Part shown: positions 56,151 to 56,277 of the stretch, in pieces
Numbering within the stretch: the stretch's first letter is position 1
Layout: each line of letters begins with the position of its first letter
Assembly (NCBI GenBank): GCA_018402295.1
Contig: JAGYJI010000005.1
Location: 141,067-205,066, forward strand
Direction of reading: 5' to 3'
Source of the DNA: Pontimonas sp.
Lineage (GTDB): Bacteria > Actinomycetota > Actinomycetes > Actinomycetales > Microbacteriaceae
DNA: 64,000 bases
Notes under the pieces: generated by a model
Database searches by the model: none
Told to the model about the DNA's origin: nothing
Seen by the model: only the letters and a program-made list of their open reading frames with translations
Position numbers and translations under genes: made by a program

Positions 56151-56156
56151 TACCCT
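56151..56156 (+). promoter_or_regulatory. -10 box placing +1 at the leuA leader peptide start
   Basis: TACCCT, 6 nt, then the GTG of the leader peptide at 56163, so the leader would be translated from the first base of the transcript. Confidence 0.55.
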
Positions 56157-56162
56157 ACACAG

Positions 56163-56213
56163 GTGAGAAACGAGCTTCTCCTCCTTACCCGCCGCGCCGG
56201 GGTGTCTCTCTAG
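56163..56213 (+). CDS. Leucine-rich leader peptide of leuA
   Basis: Sixteen residues, [16 protein letters not shown], with four consecutive leucine codons (CTT CTC CTC CTT), too short for the ORF track. Its position upstream of leuA and the following exclusive RNA structures identify it as an attenuation peptide: ribosomes stall at the Leu codons when charged tRNA-Leu is scarce. No separate ribosome site is needed because the start lies at the predicted +1. Confidence 0.8.
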
Positions 56214-56247
56214 GCCATCCCCCCGTCGCGGCTCATTGGCGTTGGCC
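56191..56247 (+). promoter_or_regulatory. leuA attenuator: hairpin with possible pseudoknot
   Basis: Arm GCCGCGCCGGGG (56191-56202) pairs with CCCCGTCGCGGC (56221-56232) over 12 positions with one mismatch. GGCCA (56213-56217) in its loop can pair with TGGCC (56243-56247) beyond it, forming a pseudoknot. The first arm starts 4 nt after the Leu codons and the loop arm overlaps the leader stop, so ribosome position would decide the fold. There is no T run, so control may be of translation rather than termination. Confidence 0.65.
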
Positions 56248-56277
56248 GCTCAGATTAGACGTAAGGGACACGAGCTC

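Follow-up and report, generated by a model that had tools for sequence, protein, structure and literature searches.

A predicted leaderless, leucine-responsive switch before leuA in a Pontimonas genome and its place in the LEU element of Actinobacteria

We analyzed a 64,000-nucleotide stretch of DNA (the window) from a Pontimonas genome assembly of 893,649 bases in 8 contigs that is 60% complete. Along the window, an era frame is followed by a short regulatory element, leuA, a recO-like frame and an uppS-like frame; the names era, recO and uppS are our assumption from the look of the sequence alone. The era frame (window positions 55238–56129) is broken by one extra base at ∼55294 and another at ∼55921 relative to a close relative, the congener L119. 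Because era is usually essential, a true pseudogene is less likely here than an error of sequencing or assembly. Within the named collection, Pontimonas sp. AM-384-M10 carries the most similar leuA, at 86% protein identity, which places the source organism within the Microbacteriaceae. From the leader start to the leuA start codon, 118 of 118 bases are identical to L119, with which era shares 821 of 896 positions and leuA 1375 of 1471; judged from sequence, the element between the leader start and leuA is under strong recent selection. By every sequence feature tested, it belongs to the LEU element, which Seliverstov et al. 2005 (PMC1262725) reported ahead of actinobacterial leuA genes, working from a genome set that includes Leifsonia xyli, a member of the Microbacteriaceae. 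Its parts are listed in Table 1.

Table 1. Features of the leuA leader region, in window positions
Feature	Position	Strand	Basis or remark
Extended −10 promoter element TGTTACCCT (TGN; TACCCT = 56151–56156)	56148–56156	+	Box spacing in relatives
Leader peptide frame, 16 codons, start codon at probable RNA 5′ end	56163–56213	+	Translation
P1, 5′ side (56172–56177 and 56182–56188), overlapping Leu codons	56172–56188	+	Fold; swap test
Four Leu regulatory codons, CTT CTC CTC CTT	56175–56186	+	Sequence; Leu run conserved in relatives
Hairpin P2, 5′ arm GCCGCGCCGGGG	56191–56202	+	Pairing in 99.3% of cells across 57 relatives
Pseudoknot arm 1, GGCCA in P2 loop	56213–56217	+	First G is last base of leader stop codon
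Hairpin P2, 3′ arm CCCCGTCGCGGC	56221–56232	+	Pairing with 5′ arm
Pseudoknot arm 2, TGGCC	56243–56247	+	Complementary to GGCCA
P1, 3′ side, GTAAGGG and GAGCTC just before leuA start	56261–56277	+	Fold; swap test
leuA, 2-isopropylmalate synthase (regulated gene)	56278–58041	+	NCBIfam TIGR00970, 836.6 bits vs cut-off 697.4

The original prediction, made from the letters of this DNA, had placed a 16-residue leucine leader peptide with four Leu codons before leuA, and both the translation and the Leu runs conserved in relatives bear this out. The frame lies directly before leuA and is the sole short ATG or GTG frame (8–30 codons) with four consecutive Leu codons on either strand of the 64 kb window; leader frames in relatives encode 11–19 amino acids, again with Leu runs.

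The frame was further said to begin exactly 6 nt after a TACCCT box, and the spacer ACACAG (56157–56162) indeed separates that box from a GTG start codon. Element and leader are conserved in all 81 Microbacteriaceae loci, and each has a TANNNT box before the leader start, 76 of them at a gap of 6 nt and 5 at 7 nt, where the start with a box was chosen when there were several in-frame starts; this placement of the −10 box 6–7 nt before the leader start in all 81 relatives is new here. For a class-wide set of 127 elements from ∼40 families, starts were picked by nearness to the start in a covariance model of the LEU element (built from 57 loci), independently of any box, and 123 boxes were found, at 6 nt (62), 7 nt (21), 8 nt (8), 9 nt (20) or 10 nt (12), compared with about one box per distance in shuffled sequence. 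Given this spacing in both sets, transcription appears, as a rule of the LEU element, to start on the first codon or no more than a few bases from it, and the 6-nt gap of the window copy, within the ∼6–7 nt between −10 box and start codon expected of leaderless mRNAs, would imply a fully leaderless RNA. The window leader thus very probably has a leaderless start, and we infer an RNA 5′ end at or next to 56163; the leaderless start had been singled out as notable, but a leaderless leuA leader was already on record (PMC8079986). Class-wide, the box-to-start distances form two groups, 6–8 nt and 9–10 nt, apparently by lineage, which suggests 5′ leaders of 0 and of 2–4 nt.

Downstream of the Leu codons, the predicted 12-position hairpin with GGCCA in its loop is present as P2, with 11 pairs and one C·U mismatch in the window copy. 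In the 57 relatives, three P2 pairs have changed on both sides, and 0 of 500 shuffles scored as high on double-change cells. A pseudoknot between the P2 loop and a downstream arm, as in the LEU element, had likewise been proposed. A count of its pairs on a plain MAFFT alignment (helix 66% paired) was discarded, and because misaligned loops had blurred that count, we adopted an alignment-free test that compares own with swapped partners. For 138 dereplicated elements, this test gave z = 10.9 (0 of 5000 permutations) for the pseudoknot helix, where z-scores of this kind are ranks within permutations rather than probabilities and are inflated by kinship among the sequences; a first version of the test with fixed regions gave a weak cross-signal between the loop and the Shine-Dalgarno sequence (z = −3.0), a reminder of that inflation. 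Relatives carry GGCCA/TGGCC, GGGCC/GGCCC, AAGCC/GGCTT, GACCGGC/GCCGGTC and GGCCGGC/GCCGGCC at these positions. The compensatory changes in paired arms that the original prediction had named as its check are found for both P2 and the pseudoknot. The fold of the window copy is not unusually stable (minimum-free-energy z-score −0.97), and support for the structure therefore comes from comparison with relatives, not from energy. The same fold shows a small hairpin near 56237–56248 that is mutually exclusive with the pseudoknot.

The first reading of the sequence had missed a base stem, P1, in which the Leu codons pair with the leuA Shine-Dalgarno sequence, as in the LEU element. Leu-codon bases and the following AC (56182–56188) pair with GTAAGGG (56261–56267), and GAGCTT pairs with GAGCTC (56272–56277), which directly adjoins the leuA ATG, so that the 3′ side of P1 covers the Shine-Dalgarno AAGGGA (56263–56268). 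Own partners again paired better than swapped ones (z = −5.4 for 63 dereplicated loci; z = −3.5 for the 18 distinct loci of and near the genus), and the two sides change together: the window group has CUUAC/GUAAG and the Pontimonas group CUUCCC/GGGAAG, a difference that extends to positions beyond the Leu codons. Since CTC and CTT codons resemble an anti-Shine-Dalgarno sequence, some complementarity is expected without regulation, and the swap tests reduce this worry rather than abolish it. Overall, these comparisons support a pairing constraint on the pseudoknot and the base stem, and what they add to the published element is that hairpin, pseudoknot and base stem appear with correlated partners among relatives.

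We modeled how a ribosome on the leader would affect P1 by masking its footprint in the fold, with the A site on a named codon and with pseudoknots and co-transcriptional folding ignored. The unpaired probability of the leuA Shine-Dalgarno in the window copy was 0.03 both in the free RNA and with the ribosome at the stop codon, against 0.60 with it on Leu codon 1 and 0.43 with it on codon 3. Mean accessibility across 81 loci was 0.22 free, 0.52 stalled and 0.24 at the stop; shifts greater than 0.2 went in the expected direction in 51 of the 81 and in the opposite direction in one, and in 14 the stalled state was not above the stop state. The proposal that folding depends on the ribosome accords with this change of modeled accessibility with ribosome position. 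The more specific claim that a stalled ribosome masks the first hairpin arm holds for the later Leu codons, but on the first Leu codons it is mainly P1 that would be blocked.

We consider it probable that the window element senses leucine and attenuates leuA at the level of translation from a leaderless RNA, with P1 providing the simplest mechanism. Transcription probably begins on or beside position 56163, and ribosomes would therefore enter the 16-codon leader directly at the RNA 5′ end, without a Shine-Dalgarno sequence. With ample Leu-tRNA, a ribosome would pass the four Leu codons and halt at the UAG within the hairpin loop, leaving the Leu-codon stretch free to form P1 with the leuA Shine-Dalgarno and keeping leuA translation low. 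When Leu-tRNA is scarce, a ribosome waiting on the Leu codons would block P1, P2 and the pseudoknot could form, and the Shine-Dalgarno would lie open. Both the stalling and the direction of regulation are what we infer from computation: from the parts and how they are conserved and covary, from the spacing of the box and from the modeled accessibility, whose pattern agrees with starvation leading to a stall, a blocked P1 and translation of leuA. The pseudoknot probably keeps the stalled-state fold compact or responds to the terminating ribosome.

Attenuation by an intrinsic terminator, as in the E. coli trp and leu operons, finds no counterpart at this locus: a scan of 56050–56400 returned no terminator-like site, and its single promoter-like match falls inside leuA. 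The missing T run had been offered as a notable point; the absence stands, but its novelty does not, the Streptomyces lividans leader leuL1 having already been reported from RNA-seq to be leaderless and to lack a typical Rho-independent terminator (PMC8079986). Transcription could nonetheless be attenuated by Rho, with slow leader translation or the pseudoknot setting whether Rho catches RNA polymerase before leuA, a scheme that needs no T run and with which the terminator scan is compatible. A leuA attenuator transcript has been reported among Corynebacterium glutamicum small RNAs and Rho has been suggested for related cys leaders; under Rho control, however, the conserved pairing of Leu codons with the Shine-Dalgarno would be purposeless, and we regard this explanation as unlikely.

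Rather improbable, in our assessment, is a scheme in which a protein or translation factor, bound to the pseudoknot, would open or close the leuA start and the leader peptide would be secondary. Seliverstov et al. (PMC1262725) proposed such binding, with an ML1624-type helicase as candidate, and favored a regulatory protein. As they summarize it, mutations of the S. coelicolor leuA leader had effects that do not fit classical attenuation; this and their preference count against the translational attenuator, and the codon mutations were not decisive. Strong conservation of P2 and the pseudoknot would fit a binding site, but conservation is equally wide for the Leu run and the leaderless box, and the proposal lacks a known binding protein. 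That the leader mainly loads ribosomes by leaderless initiation, nearby termination and reinitiation at leuA with little leucine sensing is very improbable, as it leaves the Leu run, the Shine-Dalgarno pairing and the shared design at leuC and leuB unexplained, although leader peptides have been proposed to raise downstream translation through reinitiation (PMC4833913).

Beyond the window, the covariance model has matches in 373 of 395 genomes within the class and in 37 of 40 close relatives, and in 5 of ∼260 genomes outside the class in a phylum-wide sample; the four of these that were examined all precede leuA. A few matches fall within genes, L159 and L199 among them, and were read as chance. 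Of the other Microbacteriaceae in the class-wide search, 21 of 22 carry at least two matches, and second copies were seen before leuC, eleven examined in other Microbacteriaceae and three among members of the window's genus. The window genome has one outside the window, at G000:C7:32725–32858 (L197:426–559), which the covariance model missed. It comprises a TACTCT box at 32728, a 6-nt gap, the leader VFRLTLLGCRSGR at 32740, a hairpin formed by CCGCAGCGGT and ACCGCTGCGG, a GGCCA/TGGCC pseudoknot and leuC at 32856. Modeled Shine-Dalgarno accessibility in this copy is 0.22 free, 0.33 stalled and 0.34 at the stop, with no difference between the last two states, which counts against the attenuator reading.

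Other families have second copies before second leuA genes and ∼180–670 nt before leuB (one leuB identity was checked). The CGCGG hairpin recurs, together with the near-leaderless geometry, at L200, L201, L206, L208, L210, L213, L218, L224 and L227–L229, mostly 180–670 nt before leuB, and the leuB-linked leaders are often of a Val/Leu/Ile type (MRQVLVLITCRGGA, MRSVFVLIDCRGEA). A weak match before a frame resembling leucyl-tRNA synthetase (L235, G114:C215) has the leader MRSATLLLSGPRRP and a T-rich stretch, and resembles the published Streptomyces leuS attenuator more than the LEU element. We tentatively suggest that the LEU element may represent, rather than a device for one leuA, a class-wide family of leaderless leucine-pathway switches (leuC, second leuA and leuB), in all of which the regulatory codons would pair with the Shine-Dalgarno to control translation, a generalization that we hold slightly less likely than not.

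In the open-access literature this switch, present in nearly all genomes of the class, is described only in the comparative study of 2005 and in a handful of RNA-seq accounts; our search of that literature found no report of LEU-type copies at leuC, leuCD or leuB. Searches of Rfam 15 at gathering and relaxed thresholds returned no relevant match to the window element, and the LEU element has no matching family there. The data establish its near-leaderless geometry across ∼40 families, leuC and leuB are likely further targets, and it is this extension that is worth following. The 20-year-old question of a protein-binding element versus a translational attenuator is now directly testable with small reporter constructs.

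In the leu operon leader of Enterobacteria (Rfam RF00512, Leu_leader), Leu codons sense Leu-tRNA and act through an intrinsic terminator. The window copy is alike in its predicted Leu-codon sensing and differs in having neither a terminator nor a match to that family. Mycobacterial cysteine-responsive leaderless leader ORFs are described as translation attenuators (Canestrari et al. 2020, cited in PMC13236596); they share with the window copy a short leaderless ORF with many residues of the amino acid concerned, whereas amino acid and genes differ. Closer are S. lividans leuL1 and the C. glutamicum leuA leader (PMC8079986, PMC4046766), which like the window copy have a short Leu-run leader before leuA; the 5′ end is measured for leuL1 and predicted for the window copy, and PMC8079986 cites both Seliverstov 2005 and Neshat 2014. 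Closest is the LEU element itself (PMC1262725), for which the pseudoknot and base stem were already published; leucine leader peptides at actinobacterial leuA, some with a proposed pseudoknot, were thus known, as the original prediction had stated. The two have in common the Leu-run leader, the pseudoknot, the base stem with the leuA Shine-Dalgarno and the site before leuA. Nothing essential differs: the window copy has a short 5-bp pseudoknot, the mismatch in P2, an extra P1 segment (GAGCTT/GAGCTC) by the leuA start codon and a Thr after the Leu run. Because leaderless translation and the lack of a T run were already published for the family, the window copy is best described as a well supported member of a known family.
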